A DNA stretch of 41,244 nt from Candidatus Acidiferrales bacterium (GCA_030037525.1 JASHRC010000058.1:1-41244); one strand, 5' to 3'. Positions 17,585 to 25,709 are shown, counted from the first letter of the stretch. Numbers and translations: made by a program. Notes: generated by a model from the sequence alone, not told the origin.

Positions 17585-19072
17585 TTACTCCGCGAGCACT
17601 CGTTTGAGGATTTCGTTGACGGTCTGCGGATTGGCTTGGCGACGCGTTTCGCGCATCACTTGCCCGACGAAAAACTGGAACACGCCTTCGTTGCCGGAGC
17701 GGTACTTGGCCACGTTCTCCGGGTGTTTGGAGACGAGTTCGCGGACGATTCGCTCAATCGCGCCCCCGTCGGTGATTTGCCTGAGCCCTTCGGCGGCGAT
17801 GATTTCCGCCGGGGGCTTGCCGGTCGAGAACATCCGGGCGAACACCTTCTTCCCGCTCGCCGAGGTGATCTCGCCCTGTTCGATGCTTCCGAGCAGCTCG
17901 GCCAGCGCCGAGGGCGAGACGGGGCAGGCGGAAATCTCCTGGCCGGCATCCTTCAGGTGGCGGAGCAGCTCCACGGAGATCCAGTTGGCGGCGGCCTTGG
18001 GGGAAGAGCCCCGCTTGACCACGGCCTCGAAATAGTCGGCCAGCGCGCGGGTCGAGGTCAAGACGCCGGCGTCGTAGGGCGTGATGCCGTAGTCGGCGAG
18101 CAAGCGCGCCGTCCGTTCCGCCGGCAGTTCCGGCATCGAGTGGCGTACGTCTCTGAGCATGGCATCGGAGGGAGAAACCGGAAGCAGGTCGGGATCAGGG
18201 AAGTAGCGGTAATCGTGGGCGAATTCCTTCGAACGCATCGGTTCGGTGCGACCTAGGGAGACATTCCAAAGGCGCGTTTCCTGCACGATGGTCCCTCCCG
18301 ATTCCAGCACGCCGATCTGCCGCTCGATTTCATATTCAAGCGCATGAGTGAGATAGCGGAACGAGTTTAAGTTCTTCACTTCCGTCTTGGTGCCGAATCT
18401 CGGCTCCCCGCGCAGCCGCACGCTGACGTTCGCATCGCAGCGCAGCGAGCCCTCCTCCATGTTGCAGTCGCTCACTTCGGTGTATTCCAGGATTTGCTTG
18501 AGCGTCGTTAGATAGGCGTAGGCTTGTGCGGCCGAGCGCAGATCGGGCTCGGACACGATTTCAACGAGCGGCACGCCGCAGCGGTTGAAATCGATATGAC
18601 TCCAGCGATCGGAATCCGGGAAGCCCTCGTGCAGGCTTTTTCCGGCATCATCCTCCATGTGCAGGCGGGTGATCCTCACGCGCTTGGTTTCGCCGGCCAC
18701 CTCGATTTCGATCCCGCCGCCGGTTGCCAGCGGCAGCTCGTACATGGAGATTTGATAGCCCTTGGGCAGATCGGGATAGAAGTAATTCTTGCGAGCAAAA
18801 CGCGAGCGCTGCTCGATTTTGCATCCCAGCGCGAGCGAGGCCCGCAAGGCGAGCTCGAGCGCCCGCTTGTTGAGCACCGGCAACGCTCCGGGCAGACCCA
18901 GGCAGACCGGGCAGGTGTTTGAATTCGGCGCCGCGCCGAATTTCGTCGAGCAGCCGCAGAAAGCTTTGGTCTCGGTCTGGAGCTGGGCGTGCACTTCCAG
19001 CCCAATGACCGCCTCGTAGCGGGCCATCACCTCCGGCGCCACGCGGGCCGCTTCTGTCGTGGTTCGAGCCAT
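17585..19072 (-). CDS. gatB: Aspartyl/glutamyl-tRNA amidotransferase subunit B
   Basis: 495 residues, standard GatB length. It is the tRNA-binding kinase subunit of GatCAB, which activates Glu-tRNA(Gln) or Asp-tRNA(Asn) for transamidation. YEAVIGLEVHAQL opens the catalytic cradle. Zinc ligands C39, C41, C54 and C57 are present (FCGCS...CPVC). The C-terminal YqeY-like tail ends QTVNEILKRVLAE. The start may be ATG 19072 or the internal ATG at residue 16 (MARYEAV). gatA and gatC are not adjacent, as is common when the genes are dispersed. It lies 46 bases downstream of the B12 receptor gene on the same strand. Confidence 0.97.
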   Translation of the reverse strand: MARTTTEAARVAPEVMARYEAVIGLEVHAQLQTETKAFCGCSTKFGAAPNSNTCPVCLGLPGALPVLNKRALELALRASLALGCKIEQRSRFARKNYFYPDLPKGYQISMYELPLATGGGIEIEVAGETKRVRITRLHMEDDAGKSLHEGFPDSDRWSHIDFNRCGVPLVEIVSEPDLRSAAQAYAYLTTLKQILEYTEVSDCNMEEGSLRCDANVSVRLRGEPRFGTKTEVKNLNSFRYLTHALEYEIERQIGVLESGGTIVQETRLWNVSLGRTEPMRSKEFAHDYRYFPDPDLLPVSPSDAMLRDVRHSMPELPAERTARLLADYGITPYDAGVLTSTRALADYFEAVVKRGSSPKAAANWISVELLRHLKDAGQEISACPVSPSALAELLGSIEQGEITSASGKKVFARMFSTGKPPAEIIAAEGLRQITDGGAIERIVRELVSKHPENVAKYRSGNEGVFQFFVGQVMRETRRQANPQTVNEILKRVLAE

Positions 19073-19118
19073 GGCAAGCTTGAAATTATAGCATTCGCGC
19101 CGGGCCAGGCCCGACCGG

Positions 19119-21404
19119 TCACTGGACTGGGCTGGAATGCTCTAAGGAAAGACGCAGCCGAACGCCGGCCGTAAAGTTCAGCGGCAGCGCCGGGAAGCCG
19201 AACGCCTCTTCGTATTTCTGGTTCAAGAAGTTGTTGAGATGGCCATAGATTTCCACGCCCCGCGGCAGCCGGTAAGCAAATCCGACGTTCGCGTCGACAT
19301 AGCCGGGATTCCGGAACAGGCATGGCAAGCCCAGCTGGCAAGCGAACACACCGAGATTGGGCTCGAGATCCAGAACCGCACCGCGAATGGACGCATTCGA
19401 GTTCACCATCCAGGGACCGTGCGTCCAGGTGATGTTGTAGCCAGCCGAACTGCGCGGGCGCCGGATGAGCGGCTCGCCTATGGTGAACGGCGCTTCGACT
19501 TCGGTCGTGCCAGCGAGCGACAAGATCGCCGTATTGAGCCAGGTGTACTCGCCCATGATTTCAAGCGAGCGAAACGGCCGAAGCGTCAGAGCGGATTCGA
19601 TCCCGTCGGCACGCGAGCGGGCGAGATTGACCGAGAGAAACGAGCTCAAATCCTCGAGCTCGCCTCCCAGGGTTACGATCTGATCGCGATAGGCGTTGTA
19701 GAAGTAGGTTACGTCCAAAACCGCTTTGTCCGTGAAAAAGCGCTGCTCGATGCCCGCGTCCACGCTGATGCTTTTTTCCGGCTTCAGTTCCGGATTATTT
19801 GTGAACCCGAGCTCGAATCCATCCGGCGGCCGGATCCCAGTGCCAAAACTGCTGTGGATGCGGGTCAGGCCGACCGAGCCGCCCTCTGGCCGCACCAGAT
19901 AAGCCACCGAGATGCGAGGGTCCACTTTGGCCACCGAACTTGCGGGAATGAAGGGCCGATTCGCAGTCACCAAGTCGGCTGCGAGCGCGTCGGTCTGGAT
20001 ATCATCGACGCGGACTCCCGTGCTCAAAAACCATCGGTTTGCTGCCTCCCATCGATTCTCGGCGAAGAAGGCATAGGTGTTCCGCGCGATCGGAAAAGGT
20101 ATGCCCGCGGCGTTGGTCACATAGGTGTCCTTGTACTCGTCCCGCCCATATTCGAATCCCGCCACCAGGACGTCGCTCGGCGCGAGCGTGATCTCGCTCC
20201 GGGTGTTGGCCGCAAGGTTCAGATTGTCGGTGAAGGACGTGGTGCCGAAGGTCGCAGGCGTGGCCGGAAAGAAATAGTTGTCGGTCGCCACGCTCAGGGT
20301 GGACACCTGCTCGAAGCGGTTTGAGAACTGCTCGGTTTCGCCCACCTGATAGCCGAAAAGGTCCTGTACCTGTTTGGTGTAGGAAGCGGGAATCCCGGGG
20401 AACAGCCCATCGGGATCCGATCCCCAGGGGCCCGCATTTTCCTCGTGGCCGTTATCCCCAAAAAAGTGCACGACGACGCGTCGGCGCGGGCTGCGGGAAT
20501 ATCCCAGACTCAGAAACGAAGTTTGATTCCGGTAGGTGTCGTCGATCGCGTCACCGTCGGTCGAGAGCCGGGACAGGTCGTAGGCCCAGCTCAATCCGTG
20601 GAAAAGACCTTCTCCGCCGCTGGCCAAGCGATAGGTGTGATAGCTTCCGCCTTCGCCCAGAAAACTGAACTGGGGGGGACCTTCCCCGTGCGGGGTGATC
20701 ACTTCCAGGACGCCGGAAACGGCGTTGGAGCCATACAATGCGCTTTCCGGACCGCGCAGGATTTCGACTTCGCTCACGCCGTCGACCGGAAGCGGCGCGA
20801 GATCAAATCCTCCTCCGAAATCGTTCATGGGAATGCCGTCGACGAGCACCAGGTTGTAGTTGGAATTTCCGCCGCGGATGAAAGCACTGGTGACGGCGCC
20901 GAGCTGGCCGGTGCGGTTGACCGCAACTCCGGGGACGTTGCGCAGGGCATCGGCCAGCGTCTGGAAGCCCCCGTTCCCGATCGCGTCCTGGTTCACCACG
21001 GTGACCGACGAACCGGTTTCGGGCGCGAGCGCTCCCCCGAGGGAAGCCGAGACGACCACTTGATCTTCGACCGCGCTGAGGGTGAGCGAAATGTCGCGAG
21101 TCTTCGTTTCACCTGCCTGCAGTTCGACGGGGAGGCTCGAGCTCGTAAATCCGGGCAGATTGGCAACGATGGTGAAGCGCCCGCTGCCGAGCCCCTGGAA
21201 CCGATACTGGCCTTCGGAATTCGACTGGGTCTCCCGGACGGCAATCAGGGAATCGAGCAGTGTGATCTTGGCTTGAGGAGCGGGGCGGCCGTCCGGATCG
21301 TAAACGGTTCCGCGAATCTCTCCTCCTGTTCGCGAACCGGTCTGCGCCCATGCGGAACAAAGCGGAAGGAATGAAAACAGCAGGAAGGAAAATCGAAGTC
21401 TCAT
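19119..21404 (-). CDS. btuB: TonB-dependent receptor, probably for cobalamin
   Basis: 761-residue outer-membrane receptor. A signal peptide (about 1-20) precedes a carboxypeptidase-regulatory-like Ig domain (about 27-110), a plug domain (about 115-230; LADALRNVPGV, FIRGGNSNYNLVLVDG, EILRGPESALYGS) and a 22-strand barrel. The family alone does not define the ligand. The cobalamin riboswitch in its leader (21471-21631) and the neighbouring btuFCD operon point strongly to vitamin B12 or a related corrinoid. ATG 21404 follows GAGGAGG at 4-5 bases, a strong ribosome-binding site that the riboswitch could mask. Confidence 0.88.
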   Translation of the reverse strand: MRLRFSFLLFSFLPLCSAWAQTGSRTGGEIRGTVYDPDGRPAPQAKITLLDSLIAVRETQSNSEGQYRFQGLGSGRFTIVANLPGFTSSSLPVELQAGETKTRDISLTLSAVEDQVVVSASLGGALAPETGSSVTVVNQDAIGNGGFQTLADALRNVPGVAVNRTGQLGAVTSAFIRGGNSNYNLVLVDGIPMNDFGGGFDLAPLPVDGVSEVEILRGPESALYGSNAVSGVLEVITPHGEGPPQFSFLGEGGSYHTYRLASGGEGLFHGLSWAYDLSRLSTDGDAIDDTYRNQTSFLSLGYSRSPRRRVVVHFFGDNGHEENAGPWGSDPDGLFPGIPASYTKQVQDLFGYQVGETEQFSNRFEQVSTLSVATDNYFFPATPATFGTTSFTDNLNLAANTRSEITLAPSDVLVAGFEYGRDEYKDTYVTNAAGIPFPIARNTYAFFAENRWEAANRWFLSTGVRVDDIQTDALAADLVTANRPFIPASSVAKVDPRISVAYLVRPEGGSVGLTRIHSSFGTGIRPPDGFELGFTNNPELKPEKSISVDAGIEQRFFTDKAVLDVTYFYNAYRDQIVTLGGELEDLSSFLSVNLARSRADGIESALTLRPFRSLEIMGEYTWLNTAILSLAGTTEVEAPFTIGEPLIRRPRSSAGYNITWTHGPWMVNSNASIRGAVLDLEPNLGVFACQLGLPCLFRNPGYVDANVGFAYRLPRGVEIYGHLNNFLNQKYEEAFGFPALPLNFTAGVRLRLSLEHSSPVQ

Positions 21405-21470
21405 GGTTCCTCCTCTCCCTCTCGCGCGGGAGCTTGAGGTTGGCCCCAGCTGGTAGCGAGCCGAGGTCGA

Positions 21471-21631
21471 GACTCCGTCGGTCTCCTGGCTTGGCGGATT
21501 CCCTAGGTTCTGGCGCGGCCTTCCCGTCCGGCTTCGATTTCCTTGCCAGGCAGTGACACGCGTCCTGGAACTCTCCGCCTTACAGTCGCGCGGCGGCGAC
21601 GGCTTTCGACCGTCTTCCCGTGCACGGAGCC
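21471..21631 (-). promoter_or_regulatory. Cobalamin riboswitch upstream of btuB
   Basis: Minus-strand aptamer with the canonical blocks in order: P1 arms GGCTCCGT (21624-21631) and ACGGAGTC (21471-21478, with G-U pairs); a GGGAA..GGTCGAAAGCC core; GCGACTGTAA (21580-21589); and the B12 box AAGCCAGGAGACC (21480-21492). No T-run terminator occurs in the 66 bases before ATG 21404. CTCCC near 21427-21431 can instead pair with the GGGAG adjoining the AGGAGG site, so translational control is the likelier mode. The aptamer call is strong; the output mode is inference. Confidence 0.93.
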
Positions 21632-21677
21632 TCCTGTGAGTGTGGACGGCGCGCGCCTATGGCGGGAATCGCCGCTT

Positions 21678-21697
21678 GCGAAGGCAGAGGCCTTCGC
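21678..21697 (-). terminator. Perfect hairpin after btuD
   Basis: GCGAAGGC, loop of four, GCCTTCGC: an 8-bp perfect stem beginning 17 bases after the btuD stop codon and before the btuB riboswitch. There is no T-run downstream. It may end or stabilise the btuFCD transcript. Confidence 0.4.
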
Positions 21698-21713
21698 GAA
21701 ACGTCTTTTCGCT

Positions 21714-22565
21714 TCAGCTGCCTTGCAAAATCACGCGCGGCCGCCCGTTCGGCCGCATTTCGATTTCCAGCGGTGCCTCAAAAACTTCCTCGAGCAAGGC
21801 CCGATCGTATACTTCTGCTGCCGTGCCCACGCGCAAGCATTTGCCTTTGTGCAGTAGCACGATTCGATCGCAAAACTCCGAGGCCAGATCCAGCTCGTGG
21901 GTCACCACCAGCACGGTATAGCGATTGCCATCGGCCAATCTTCGGAGTCGGCGAAGCAGCTCTACCTTTCCGCCGATATCGAGATGCTGCGTGGGCTCAT
22001 CGAGCAGAAGGAGCGACGGCTGTTGCGCGAGCGCCCGCGCCAAAATCACCCTTTGCTTTTCGCCTCCCGAGAGCTGATCCATCCACCGGTCGCGCAACCG
22101 GTCCGCGCCCACCTGGGCGAGCGCGTTTGCCGCGTACAAGCAGTCTTGGTCAGACTCAAATCGCAGCCGCCGCCCGTAGGGATAGCGTCCCTGCAGAACG
22201 TACTCCCAGACGCGCAACGGAAACAGCAGCTCGCTCTCCTGTCCGACCAGCGCGATTCGCTGCGCGCGCACGCGCAAATCAAGCTGGCTGACCTCCGCTC
22301 CGTTGATTTCGACGCGACCGGAGAGCGGCTTGTTTAATCCCGCCAGCAGCGTGAGCAGCGTCGACTTCCCGCTGGCGTTCGGGCCGAGGATGGCCACGAT
22401 CTCGTGCGCCTGCGCTTCGAAGGTTACCGGGCCCAGCGTGAAGGTCGGCGCGGAGGCGTCTGTGGCCCGATAGGCATAGCTTGCCTGTTCCACTTTGAGG
22501 TGCGTGTTTCCGGCGCCCGGCGTCGAGGCGTCCCGCGTCGCGGTGCCGAATCCCAACGAGCTCAT
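21714..22565 (-). CDS. btuD: Vitamin B12 ABC transporter ATPase
   Basis: 283 residues from ATG 22565, which forms ATGA with the permease stop; the longer open frame upstream is a shadow of the permease. Walker A GPNASGKST (61-69), Q109, signature LSGGEKQR (165-172), Walker B LLLLDEP (185-191) and H223 are all present. It energises import of corrinoid by the FecCD-type permease in the inner membrane. FecE/BtuD-family ATPases for siderophores look the same; the riboswitch upstream of the operon decides for cobalamin. Confidence 0.92.
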   Translation of the reverse strand: MSSLGFGTATRDASTPGAGNTHLKVEQASYAYRATDASAPTFTLGPVTFEAQAHEIVAILGPNASGKSTLLTLLAGLNKPLSGRVEINGAEVSQLDLRVRAQRIALVGQESELLFPLRVWEYVLQGRYPYGRRLRFESDQDCLYAANALAQVGADRLRDRWMDQLSGGEKQRVILARALAQQPSLLLLDEPTQHLDIGGKVELLRRLRRLADGNRYTVLVVTHELDLASEFCDRIVLLHKGKCLRVGTAAEVYDRALLEEVFEAPLEIEMRPNGRPRVILQGS

Positions 22566-23578
22566 CGCACCCTCCGCCGCATGAGATAGATGAACACCGG
22601 CGCGCCCACCAGAGCGGTCATCGCGCCAACCGGCAGTTCCGTGGGAGCAACGACGGTGCGCGCCAGCAGATCGGCCAGCACGATCAAAACAGCGCCCCCC
22701 AGCGCCGAGGTGGGAACCAGCAAGCGGTAATCGCTGCCAAACATCATCCGCATCAGGTGCGGCACGAGGAGGCCCACGTAACCGATCGCCCCGCTTACGG
22801 AGACGGCCAGGCCGGTGAGCAGGGAAGCCGCCACATAGACGACGACTTTTACACGGTTCACATTCACGCCCAGATGCCGGGCCTCCTGCTCCCCCGTCAG
22901 AATCAGATTCAAATCCGATGAGGTTGTGTAAATCGATCCCACACCGATCACCAGCAGCAAATAAAGCCAGCGCGAGCTGATCGGAGGAGGCGATGCCAGG
23001 TCGCCCATCAGCCAAAATGCCATGCCGCGAAGCTCCCGCCCGGGCAGCATGGTCATCAGAAACATGATCACCGCCGACAGAAACGAAACAGCCACGATTC
23101 CAGCCAGAAGCAACGTCGCGGTATCCACGTGCCCGCCGCGCCGGCCGAGAAAATAGACCACGGCGATCGTCGCTCCAGCCCCGGCAAATGCGGCAAGCTG
23201 AATCATCCCTGGCGTCTCGGGCGCCAGCGCCAGGCTGATGATCGCGCCAAGCGCCGCGCCGCTGGAAACCCCCAGCACATAGGGATCGGCCAGCGGGTTC
23301 CGCAGCAGAGCTTGGAAGCCGGCCCCGGCTGTGGAAAGCGATGCGCCAACCAGAATTCCCAGGGCGATGCGCGGCAGGCGAATCTCGTACACCACATTCC
23401 AGAAATCAGGAGGAATCTGGCTGCTGCGACCTAGGAAACGGTCGACCAGCGTCATCACGATCTCCGGTACGGAAATCGGATAAGCGCCCATGCGCAGCGA
23501 AATCACCACGGCAATGAACAGTACCGCGCCGAGCGCGGCCGAAATCAAGACGACACGCCTCGGCGTCAGCGGGCGCAC
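22562..23578 (-). CDS. btuC: Vitamin B12 ABC transporter permease (FecCD family)
   Basis: 338 residues with about ten membrane helices. FecCD landmarks: RLPRIALGILVGASLSTAGA, LRNPLADPYVLGVSSGAALGA and the ATPase-contacting loop GAIGYVGLLVPHLMR. It begins with GTG 23578 and overlaps the end of btuF by 13 bases. Its stop overlaps the btuD start in ATGA. Tight coupling supports stoichiometric production of one BtuFCD importer. Confidence 0.93.
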   Translation of the reverse strand: MRPLTPRRVVLISAALGAVLFIAVVISLRMGAYPISVPEIVMTLVDRFLGRSSQIPPDFWNVVYEIRLPRIALGILVGASLSTAGAGFQALLRNPLADPYVLGVSSGAALGAIISLALAPETPGMIQLAAFAGAGATIAVVYFLGRRGGHVDTATLLLAGIVAVSFLSAVIMFLMTMLPGRELRGMAFWLMGDLASPPPISSRWLYLLLVIGVGSIYTTSSDLNLILTGEQEARHLGVNVNRVKVVVYVAASLLTGLAVSVSGAIGYVGLLVPHLMRMMFGSDYRLLVPTSALGGAVLIVLADLLARTVVAPTELPVGAMTALVGAPVFIYLMRRRVR

Positions 23579-24594
23579 TCGTGAAACTCCAGGACTGGGT
23601 TGGTTCCGCCAGCGAAAGCGAGCCAGGTTCGGTTCCCTAATTCTCTGTTGCCGGAAAACACCTCGCGGTGAACTTCGCGGGCCAGCTGCTCGATGGCGTC
23701 AACCAGGCCCGGCGCCGGGCGTATGGCGTCCTCATTGAGATCCACCACGTGACCTCGTTCGACCGCATCGAGGTCGCGCCACACGGGACGGCTGCGCAAA
23801 TCGGCCAGTTCCGCCCGGGCGCTTTCGCCGTGCCCTCCGGCGAAGACGATATAATCGGGCTCGAGGCGCAGGACTTCCTCCAGATTAATCTTCGGCCAGT
23901 TCTGTTTGGAGAGCACCACCGACTCGGCGCCCGCCCAGCGCAGGGCGTCCGCAATGAACGTGTTCTGCCCGATCGTTGTCAGCGGGTCGAGCCACACGAT
24001 GAACAGCACGTGCACTGGGGGCCGGTCGCGAAGCCTGGCGTCGAGCGCATCGAGCCGCCGCCTGAGCTGCGCCACCAGTTGGTCGCCTGCGGTTTTTGCG
24101 CCAATCGCATCGGCCATTTTCCCAATCGAATCGAGGATGCCGAGCACGGTCTCGGTATCGCCTCCAGCCGTGTAAACGGCGATGCCCAGCCGCTCGAGCG
24201 CGTCGATGGTGTCCACGCGATTGATCGAGTCGGCCGCCAGCACTAAATCCGGATGCAGCGAGACAATCGCCTCCAGGCTGGGATTTTCCGGCTCGCCCAC
24301 GTGAGGCTTCGATTCCGCCGCTGGCGGGTCGTCACATTCGCTGGTGTCGCCGGCGAGCTTATCCCCAAGGCCGAGCGCATAGACAATCTCAGTGATATTC
24401 GGCGCGAGCGTCACAATGCGATTGACTTCGCGAGGCATCCTCACCTTGCGGCCCACATCATCGACGACCGTTCGACGGTCGTCGCTTACGGCAGCCTGCG
24501 AACTCTTTTCCGCGAGCGCAGCCGAGGCAGCGGTCGAAAACAGCCAGGCGGCGCTCCCGATCATAGCGGCCAGCCGCGAGCCAATCTGTTTCAA
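23566..24594 (-). CDS. btuF: Periplasmic cobalamin-binding protein
   Basis: 342-residue class III (TroA-like) substrate-binding protein: ITEIVYALGLGDKLAG and PSLEAIVSLHPDLVLA are typical of BtuF. The start is read as TTG 24594 because GGAG lies 8 bases before it and the resulting N-terminus (MKQIGSRLAAMIGSAAWLF) has a charged head and hydrophobic core of a signal peptide. An internal ATG at 24564 would cut the charged head. The start sits 16 bases after the terminator U-run, so a read-through transcript exposes the ribosome-binding site directly. First gene of btuFCD. Confidence 0.92.
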   Translation of the reverse strand: MKQIGSRLAAMIGSAAWLFSTAASAALAEKSSQAAVSDDRRTVVDDVGRKVRMPREVNRIVTLAPNITEIVYALGLGDKLAGDTSECDDPPAAESKPHVGEPENPSLEAIVSLHPDLVLAADSINRVDTIDALERLGIAVYTAGGDTETVLGILDSIGKMADAIGAKTAGDQLVAQLRRRLDALDARLRDRPPVHVLFIVWLDPLTTIGQNTFIADALRWAGAESVVLSKQNWPKINLEEVLRLEPDYIVFAGGHGESARAELADLRSRPVWRDLDAVERGHVVDLNEDAIRPAPGLVDAIEQLAREVHREVFSGNRELGNRTWLAFAGGTNPVLEFHECAR

Positions 24595-24609
24595 TTCGCA
24601 ATCTCCAAC

Positions 24610-24637
24610 AAAAAAGCCTCGCGAGAGTAGCGAGGCT
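24610..24637 (-). terminator. Intrinsic terminator of the btuFCD riboswitch
   Basis: Minus-strand stem AGCCTCGC (24630-24637) and GCGAGGCT (24615-24622), 7-base loop, followed by a run of six T (24610-24615 read on the minus strand). It lies between the aptamer and btuF. TTCGCGAG at 24655-24662 can pair with CTCGCGAG at 24618-24625 inside the stem, making a plausible antiterminator. High cobalamin would favour the terminator. Confidence 0.88.
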
Positions 24638-24675
24638 CAGAAACCACACTCCTTCTCGCGAAGAGTTGCAGCTTC

Positions 24676-24816
24676 AACTGGTCCGGGTACGTTCCTGACT
24701 CTCGGTTCGTCTTGGCGAACCGATCACAGTGGCGGGACCGTGGCCGATTCTCACGGCCTTCCGTTTGCCCCGAGAATCAGCCCACGGCTGATTCCGAGCA
24801 ACATCCCGTGCCAGTT
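24676..24816 (-). promoter_or_regulatory. Cobalamin riboswitch upstream of btuFCD
   Basis: Minus-strand aptamer closed by perfectly complementary P1 arms AACTGG (24811-24816) and CCAGTT (24676-24681). Core blocks: GGCCGTGAGAATCGGCC, CCCGCCACTGTGA (near 24724-24736) and the B12-box-like GAGTCAGGAACGTACC (24686-24701). A terminator follows at 24610-24637 and a promoter precedes at 24832-24861, so the control unit is complete and acts on transcription. Confidence 0.93.
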
Positions 24817-24831
24817 CAGTTGTCGCAGGCG

Positions 24832-24861
24832 AGTGTAAGCTGAGCGTTCCCAGGGTGTCAA
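24832..24861 (-). promoter_or_regulatory. Promoter of the btuFCD riboswitch transcript
   Basis: Minus-strand TTGACA (24856-24861, perfect -35), 18-base spacer, TACACT (24832-24837). The predicted start near 24825 is about 9 bases before the aptamer P1 stem, a fit that supports both calls. Confidence 0.72.
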
Positions 24862-24881
24862 TCGGCGTTCGCGAGCTCGAG

Positions 24882-25709
24882 CTATCGGTTCTTCCACTTC
24901 GGAGCGCGCTGTTCAACCAGGGCGCGCAGGCCTTCTTGCGAGTCCTCCAGCTCAGCCAGTTCGTTGAGGAAGACCTTCATGGAGTTTCGGACTCCCTCGC
25001 GCAGCGGCAAACCGAGACTGCCGAGGATGGCTTTCTTTGCCATCGTCAACACCGGACCGGATTGCGCCGTCACTTTTGCAATCACTTCGTCGACTTTGTT
25101 TTTAAGCTCTGTTTCCGGCACCAGCCAGTTCACCAGCCCTAGTTCGCGAGCGCGTTCGGCGGACATCGCCTCCCCGGTCAGCACCAGTTCCAGCGCTTGC
25201 TTGGTTCCGAGAACCGAGGGCAGCACGGCCGCCGCCAGCGGAGGGAAGACCCCCAGTTTGATTTCCGGCTGTGCGAAACGTGCCTTGGGCGTCGCGATCA
25301 CCAGATCGCCGAGCGCCGCCAGTTCCGCGCCGCCGCCGTAGGCAGGTCCGTTGACCACGACCAGCAGTGGTTTTGAGGTGTCCAGCATCGCCGCGAATGC
25401 GACATGAAACGCATCCAGCAGTTGGAACACGCGGCGCTGAGTGTATTCGCCGATCTCGATTCCGCCGCAAAATGTCTGGCCCGCGGAATCCAGAACCATC
25501 AGCTTGATCTCGTTGCGTCCACCCACCACGCTGATGCCAACGGCCAGCTCCGCCAGCATGCGCTCGTTCAGGAGATTGTGCTCCGGACGGTTGAGCCTGA
25601 TCCGCGCGACTTCGCCCTCCACCTGCACCTTGACAAACTCAAATTGTTCGACTCTCGGCGTGACCAGCGCGAGCGTGCCGAGGACCTCGACCCCGCGTCC
25701 CTGGGGCAT
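24882..25709 (-). CDS. Enoyl-CoA hydratase/isomerase family protein
   Basis: 275-residue crotonase-fold enzyme. The CoA-oxyanion segments FCGGIEIGEY and GPAYGGGAELAALGD are present, and both hydratase acidic residues appear to be kept (E129 and E149 in FAQPEIKLG). The N-terminal strand FEFVKVQVEGEVARIRLNRPEHN is typical. GGAG lies 7 bases before ATG 25709. The thiolase remnant immediately upstream suggests it once formed part of a beta-oxidation-like or aromatic acyl-CoA operon. The substrate cannot be assigned. Confidence 0.88.
   Translation of the reverse strand: MPQGRGVEVLGTLALVTPRVEQFEFVKVQVEGEVARIRLNRPEHNLLNERMLAELAVGISVVGGRNEIKLMVLDSAGQTFCGGIEIGEYTQRRVFQLLDAFHVAFAAMLDTSKPLLVVVNGPAYGGGAELAALGDLVIATPKARFAQPEIKLGVFPPLAAAVLPSVLGTKQALELVLTGEAMSAERARELGLVNWLVPETELKNKVDEVIAKVTAQSGPVLTMAKKAILGSLGLPLREGVRNSMKVFLNELAELEDSQEGLRALVEQRAPKWKNR

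Follow-up and report, generated by a model that had tools for sequence, protein, structure and literature searches.

Two predicted OFF-type cobalamin riboswitches in series at a btuFCD-btuB locus of Candidatus Acidiferrales

Organization and conservation of the locus

We analyzed a 41,244-nucleotide (nt) stretch of DNA, referred to as the window (GCA_030037525.1 JASHRC010000058.1:1-41244), from Candidatus Acidiferrales bacterium, a soil Acidobacteriota bacterium whose 4.2 Mb genome is 93% complete. The minus strand at 19119-24861 carries two cobalamin riboswitches and four genes expected to function in vitamin B12 import, arranged as riboswitch 1, btuF, btuC, btuD, riboswitch 2 and a btuB-like receptor gene (Table 1). 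This arrangement points to one import operon under two riboswitches in series, the first predicted to terminate transcription and the second to control translation of the receptor.

An earlier interpretation made from the DNA alone (the sequence-only reading) had proposed two separate minus-strand aptamers, each with an ACTGT core and a B12 box, and had named a covariance-model scan as the check. In that scan, both regions matched the cobalamin family RF00174 of Rfam above its gathering cut-off of 31.5 bits, and no other match was found in the whole genome. The B12 box and the ACUGU core are present in both aptamers (AGUCAGGA / AGCCAGGAG and CCACUGUGA / CGACUGUAA). Because of the Rfam E-values, chance can be excluded for the aptamers; it can be excluded for their arrangement because the arrangement is conserved.

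The relatives named by the genome search were Acidobacteriota, mostly Candidatus Acidiferrales or Terriglobia. Cobalamin riboswitches were observed in 85 of 89 genomes of the family, usually exactly two and about 3.2 kb apart, and pairs also occurred in two sister families within the order. Of the remaining genomes sampled from the class, most had one or a few. The comparative set consisted of 62 paired loci, drawn from three families within this one Acidobacteriota order (Candidatus Acidiferrales and relatives; about 60 species). The order riboswitch-btuF-btuC-btuD-riboswitch-receptor was kept on one strand in 61 of them, and the remaining locus ends at a contig edge. Other arrangements were also seen. 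In one genus (three loci in three genomes), about 5 kb separate two full-length riboswitches, this interval contains no btuFCD match, and the second riboswitch is followed by a receptor gene. In two further loci of relatives, a different TonB-dependent receptor-like gene is preceded by two full-length aptamers with a spacing of a few hundred bases, and these are candidate same-leader cobalamin doublets.

Table 1 Features of the locus, with positions counted from the first letter of the window
Feature	Position	Strand	Basis
Predicted sigma70 operon promoter, TTGACA-18-TACACT	24832..24861	-	Sole promoter-like site in 19000-25200
Riboswitch 1 aptamer, RF00174, short form without P8-P12	24669..24801	-	45.5 bits, E 2.2e-8, full model length
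L5 region of aptamer 1 (GGUCCCGCC)	24731..24739	-	Near-invariant, 61/62 relatives
P13 hairpin of leader 1, loop L13 CGCGAGA	24648..24667	-	Stem covariation
Antiterminator 5' half CUUCGCGAGA (end of P13 5' arm and L13)	24654..24663	-	10-pair complement to 24626-24617
Leader 1 intrinsic terminator GAGCCUCGC..GCGAGGCU and U-run	24609..24638	-	3' arm common to terminator and antiterminator
btuF-like periplasmic binding protein, TTG start	23566..24594	-	PF01497 1.4e-35; closest PDB chain 5ysc, vitamin B12-binding protein, 6.8e-25
btuC-like FecCD permease	22562..23578	-	PF01032 4.8e-89; best NCBIfam is BtuC, under cut-off
btuD-like ATP-binding cassette (ABC) ATPase	21714..22610	-	PF00005 3.5e-32
Gap between btuD and riboswitch 2, 69 nt	21645..21713	-	No promoter, no U-run terminator on minus strand
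Riboswitch 2 aptamer, RF00174, full form with P8-P12 region	21459..21644	-	62 bits, E 3.9e-13, full model length
L5 region of aptamer 2 (CCGCGCGAC)	21585..21593	-	Near-invariant in relatives
Predicted anti-Shine-Dalgarno segment CCAACCUC; ACAACCUUC in most relatives	21436..21443	-	Pairs with Shine-Dalgarno sequence in predicted folds
P13 hairpin of leader 2, CUCCC-GCGCGAGA-GGGAG	21415..21432	-	Kept within family
Shine-Dalgarno AGGAGG of btuB, adjoining P13	21409..21414	-	Sequence; AUG at 21404
btuB-like TonB-dependent receptor	19119..21404	-	PF00593, PF07715; best PDB is BtuB, 3.6e-22 over plug

Predicted transcription termination in leader 1

A hairpin followed by a U-run was found in leader 1 at all 47 loci of a loose scan and at 52 of 62 loci of a strict one, compared with 3 of 305 shuffled sequences. 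In nearly all of the ten strict-scan misses, a GC stem and a U-run were visible by eye, with a loop or stem beyond the limits of the scan. The alternative structure is an antiterminator in which CUUCGCGAGA (24663-24654) pairs with UCUCGCGAGG (24626-24617), namely the terminator loop and 3' arm. Across loci, this partner reads UCUCGYGGGG, and 94.7% of the antiterminator cells were paired in 53 loci. Furthermore, the P13 stem of leader 1 showed two-sided changes in 7 of 7 columns around the constant loop CGCGAGA, and 95.6% of its cells were paired compared with 85.1% when the partners were re-dealt (n = 58). These results support the prediction that riboswitch 1 is a transcription-terminating switch with an intrinsic terminator and an alternative antiterminator. 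Indeed, the promoter, aptamer, antiterminator candidate and U-run terminator that the sequence-only reading had described before btuFCD were each located.

Predicted Shine-Dalgarno sequestration in leader 2

In leader 2, no intrinsic terminator was detected up to the start codon in any of 61 loci by the strict scan, which ended there. Matches of the loose scan were weak or straddled the start codon and were rejected. In one genus (two genomes), a U-run follows a long imperfect hairpin that doubles as the anti-Shine-Dalgarno segment, and it was not scored as a terminator. The model-defined end of aptamer 2 lies 54 nt ahead of the AUG, where the sequence-only reading had given 66 bases. In the predicted fold, CCUC at 21439-21436 pairs with the AGGAGG of the Shine-Dalgarno sequence (SD); across loci, the unpaired probability of the SD had a median of 0.10 and was below 0.3 in 57 of 59. 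Altered SDs were matched by altered upstream partners, AAAGG with CUUUUUU in genome G046 and AAAGGA with CUUUC in genome G043. In the sister families, CCCC-UUCGCU-GGGG takes the place of the P13 hairpin. By inspection, CGCGCG of L5 can pair with CGCGCG of L13; such complementary L5-L13 segments are conserved in both riboswitches but near-invariant, so that covariation is uninformative there.

The folds and the terminator counts support the view that riboswitch 2 is translational, with the SD predicted to be sequestered in a stem linked to P13. The strong AGGAGG and the lack of a U-run terminator before btuB, both pointed out previously, were borne out. The proposed masking of AGGAGG by CTCCC needs revision: masking itself is retained in the predicted fold, but CUCCC pairs with the adjacent GGGAG, and it is the upstream CCUC that pairs with the SD.

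Two other features of receptor leaders were observed. The 3' strand of the outer helix of aptamer 2 (GGAGUCUCG, 21476-21468, minus strand) is complementary to the btuB start region (AUGAGACUUCG, 21404-21394, minus strand). The energy of this duplex was -14.3 kcal/mol with starts of the own genus vs -9.5 kcal/mol with those of other genera (z -2.7 vs shuffles), and matching changes were seen in two relatives. Outside the order, the aptamer of two receptor-first leaders is followed by a terminator-like hairpin with a U-run, according to which lineages seem to differ in output mode at this gene.

Promoters and the gap after btuD

We scanned 250 nt upstream of each riboswitch in 47 loci for sites agreeing with at least 9/12 of the sigma70 consensus. 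Such a promoter was found upstream of riboswitch 1 in 40 of 47 loci (shuffles 7%), whereas none was found within this distance upstream of riboswitch 2 (0/47; shuffles 4%). Extended -10 promoters were found upstream of neither. The distance from the btuD stop to riboswitch 2 ranged from 41 to 397 nt with a median of 87 nt. Because of this promoter asymmetry and the short, terminator-free gap, riboswitch 2 is most likely intercistronic in a single btuFCD-btuB mRNA. It follows that termination would gate all four genes, and SD sequestration would act as a second gate for btuB only. The sequence-only reading had import switched at transcription and the receptor at translation, as two halves. The differing output modes hold over the 62 loci; independent switching of the halves does not agree with the promoter counts and the short gap.

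The gap itself holds a hairpin, GCGAAGGC-CUCU-GCCUUCGC (21697-21678, minus strand), which lacks a U-run and has similar counterparts in three relatives. It is possibly an RNA stability or processing element.

Forms of the two aptamers

The two aptamers differ between the core and the B12 box. In riboswitch 1, these are separated by 31 nt with a single hairpin and no P8 markers, and this region was short in 48 of 62 loci. In riboswitch 2, they are separated by 95 nt with CACUG...CGGGAAGG markers, and P8-P12 was kept in 60 of 62 loci. Class I riboswitches have the P8-P12 extension and bind adenosylcobalamin (AdoCbl), and class II riboswitches lack the extension (PMC11260477). Riboswitch 2 has the extension that defines class I and riboswitch 1 does not; the absence of the extension in riboswitch 1 agrees with class II, with its J3/4 and J6/3 junction motifs not confidently assigned. 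P8-P12 is present in riboswitch 1 of some lineages, including both sister families, and because of this it was likely lost within the family. A difference in affinity or ligand preference between the two aptamers is plausible because P8-P12 is absent in aptamer 1 only. The different cobalamin thresholds of the two halves that the sequence-only reading suggested are, like the class of riboswitch 1, hypothetical.

Identity of the genes and probable B12 dependence

For the receptor, the BtuB family TIGR01779 (TonB-B12) was the best NCBIfam family, yet the score of 125.8 bits was below the equivalog cut-off of 599.7. We call the gene btuB-like because of its riboswitch context and the closest PDB matches. 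Neither CbiC nor CobS was detectable in the genome, of which the assembly is incomplete (93%), and 11 matches to B12-binding domains were found. On these grounds, the organism is probably a B12 salvager dependent on imported corrinoids.

Discussion

Taken together, we consider it probable, at roughly three in four, that btuF-btuC-btuD-btuB is one B12-import operon, transcribed into one mRNA under two OFF-type cobalamin riboswitches in series. This reading is built on the two aptamers, the gene order, the terminator found in leader 1 and in no leader 2, the conservation of these features, the covariation of leader 1 P13 and the promoter asymmetry. It presumes that both aptamers bind cobalamin with an OFF sign, that the kissing loops form, that there is a single transcript and that the SD is sequestered in vivo. 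When cobalamin is bound to riboswitch 1, L5 would hold L13 and P13 would form; the terminator would then form and the whole operon would be off. In the free state, the P13 5' arm and L13 would be paired with the loop and 3' arm of the terminator, which would allow read-through by RNA polymerase. In bound riboswitch 2, L5-L13 docking would stabilize P13 and the lower stem, hiding the SD and blocking translation of btuB alone. The second gate could still prevent synthesis of the receptor from existing mRNAs.

Several points weigh against this reading. The conservation counts include close relatives, and the loci are related, so that the counts are not independent events. In leader 1, the antiterminator columns are near-invariant and give little covariation support, leaving this pairing to rest more on complementarity, and the possible L5-L13 pairing UCCCGC/GCGAGA contains one C-A mismatch by inspection. 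In leader 2, P13 is near-invariant within the family; the isolated platform folds sequestered by default, and no partner that opens P13 in the free state was identified. Seven of 47 relatives lack a consensus promoter upstream of riboswitch 1, and btuB may have a noncanonical or distant promoter.

Such a promoter would make btuFCD and btuB two independent units, one controlled by termination and the other by translation. Each gene group does have a complete riboswitch of its own, Terriglobia outside the order often have a btuB-like gene first after its own riboswitch, and other promoter types escape sigma70 consensus scans. This arrangement is nevertheless distinctly unlikely given the 0/47 and 40/47 counts obtained by the same scan in the same genomes, the gap of only 69 nt and the lack of a terminator after btuD. 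A different question is the final step at riboswitch 2, where blocked translation might be coupled to Rho-dependent termination or to mRNA decay as the main route of repression, so that both switches lower mRNA. In the E. coli btuB riboswitch, Rho termination is coupled to SD sequestration (PMC13104608), and the lack of an intrinsic terminator in leader 2 agrees with such a route. We regard it as rather doubtful, as the conserved SD-occluding stem already accounts for repression; it would leave the series arrangement intact and change this final step only.

It is also conceivable, although unlikely, that the aptamers sense different cobalamins, riboswitch 1 preferring methyl- or aquocobalamin or being promiscuous and riboswitch 2 being selective for AdoCbl. 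The published preferences of class I and class IIa, the latter preferring methylcobalamin and hydroxocobalamin (MeCbl/HyCbl) (PMC11260477), and the distribution of P8-P12 over the 62 loci fit this idea. However, class IIb also binds AdoCbl (PMC11260477), the ACUGU and GGAA core is common to both aptamers, P8-P12 in riboswitch 1 of the sister lineages allows simple loss, and the accessory region is reported to be highly variable among cobalamin riboswitches (PMC9600662). Still more improbable is the extension of this idea to a two-input RNA-only circuit, in which riboswitch 1 would sense incoming aquo- or methylcobalamin for four genes and class I riboswitch 2 would sense AdoCbl for the receptor only.

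If two switches do act in series on one message, the response of the receptor could have two stages and be steeper than that of its partner genes, and this would explain how a B12 scavenger shuts receptor synthesis on existing messages. It would also mean that intercistronic riboswitches can be overlooked when 5' leaders alone are examined. The general question of why one message has two switches for one metabolite is made testable, and the conservation in about 60 species of one order provides a ready comparative set.

The predicted riboswitch 2 resembles the E. coli btuB riboswitch in its aptamer, its putative L5-L13 kissing loop and its predicted SD sequestration before an outer-membrane B12 receptor gene. 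The E. coli switch stands in a leader that belongs to btuB alone, separate from btuCD and btuF, whereas riboswitch 2 is predicted to be intercistronic, with another cobalamin riboswitch upstream of it. Riboswitch 1 is comparable to the repressing corrinoid riboswitch of Priestia megaterium metE, for which the L5-L13/P13/antiterminator model was established experimentally: the kissing loop stabilizes P13, P13 excludes the antiterminator and the terminator forms (PMC10653944). Compared with metE, the pairing partner of the terminator loop and 3' arm would here be the P13 5' arm together with L13 itself. In an analysis with TaRTLEt, a cobalamin riboswitch that terminates was almost always accompanied, in Gram-negative taxa, by others without a sign of termination (PMC12121620).

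Tandem arrangements are also known. Two cobalamin aptamers in series occur in AdoCbl doublets, 26 of which were counted among pseudo-cooperative systems in PMC9481103, and the passages of that paper considered here list no cobalamin pair among its "bi-mechanism" riboswitches. In the open-licence literature, we found no operon across which a pair of cobalamin riboswitches is divided, and this is not proof of absence. The bi-mechanism principle is known for S-adenosylmethionine (SAM), and what appears new here, if the single transcript holds, is its use with cobalamin and its split across an operon. As described in PMC9481103, SAM-II (termination) stands ahead of SAM-V (translation) in one leader, and the argument for such pairs is that mRNAs completed earlier can still be silenced by the second switch. 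Like SAM-II/SAM-V, the present locus has two riboswitches in series, the first predicted to terminate and the second to control translation initiation, and both, as members of one Rfam family (RF00174), may respond to the same ligand, as such pairs do. Unlike SAM-II/SAM-V as described there, with one leader and one gene, the cobalamin switches are separated by about 3 kb containing three genes, and the first would gate the whole set of four, the second the final gene alone.
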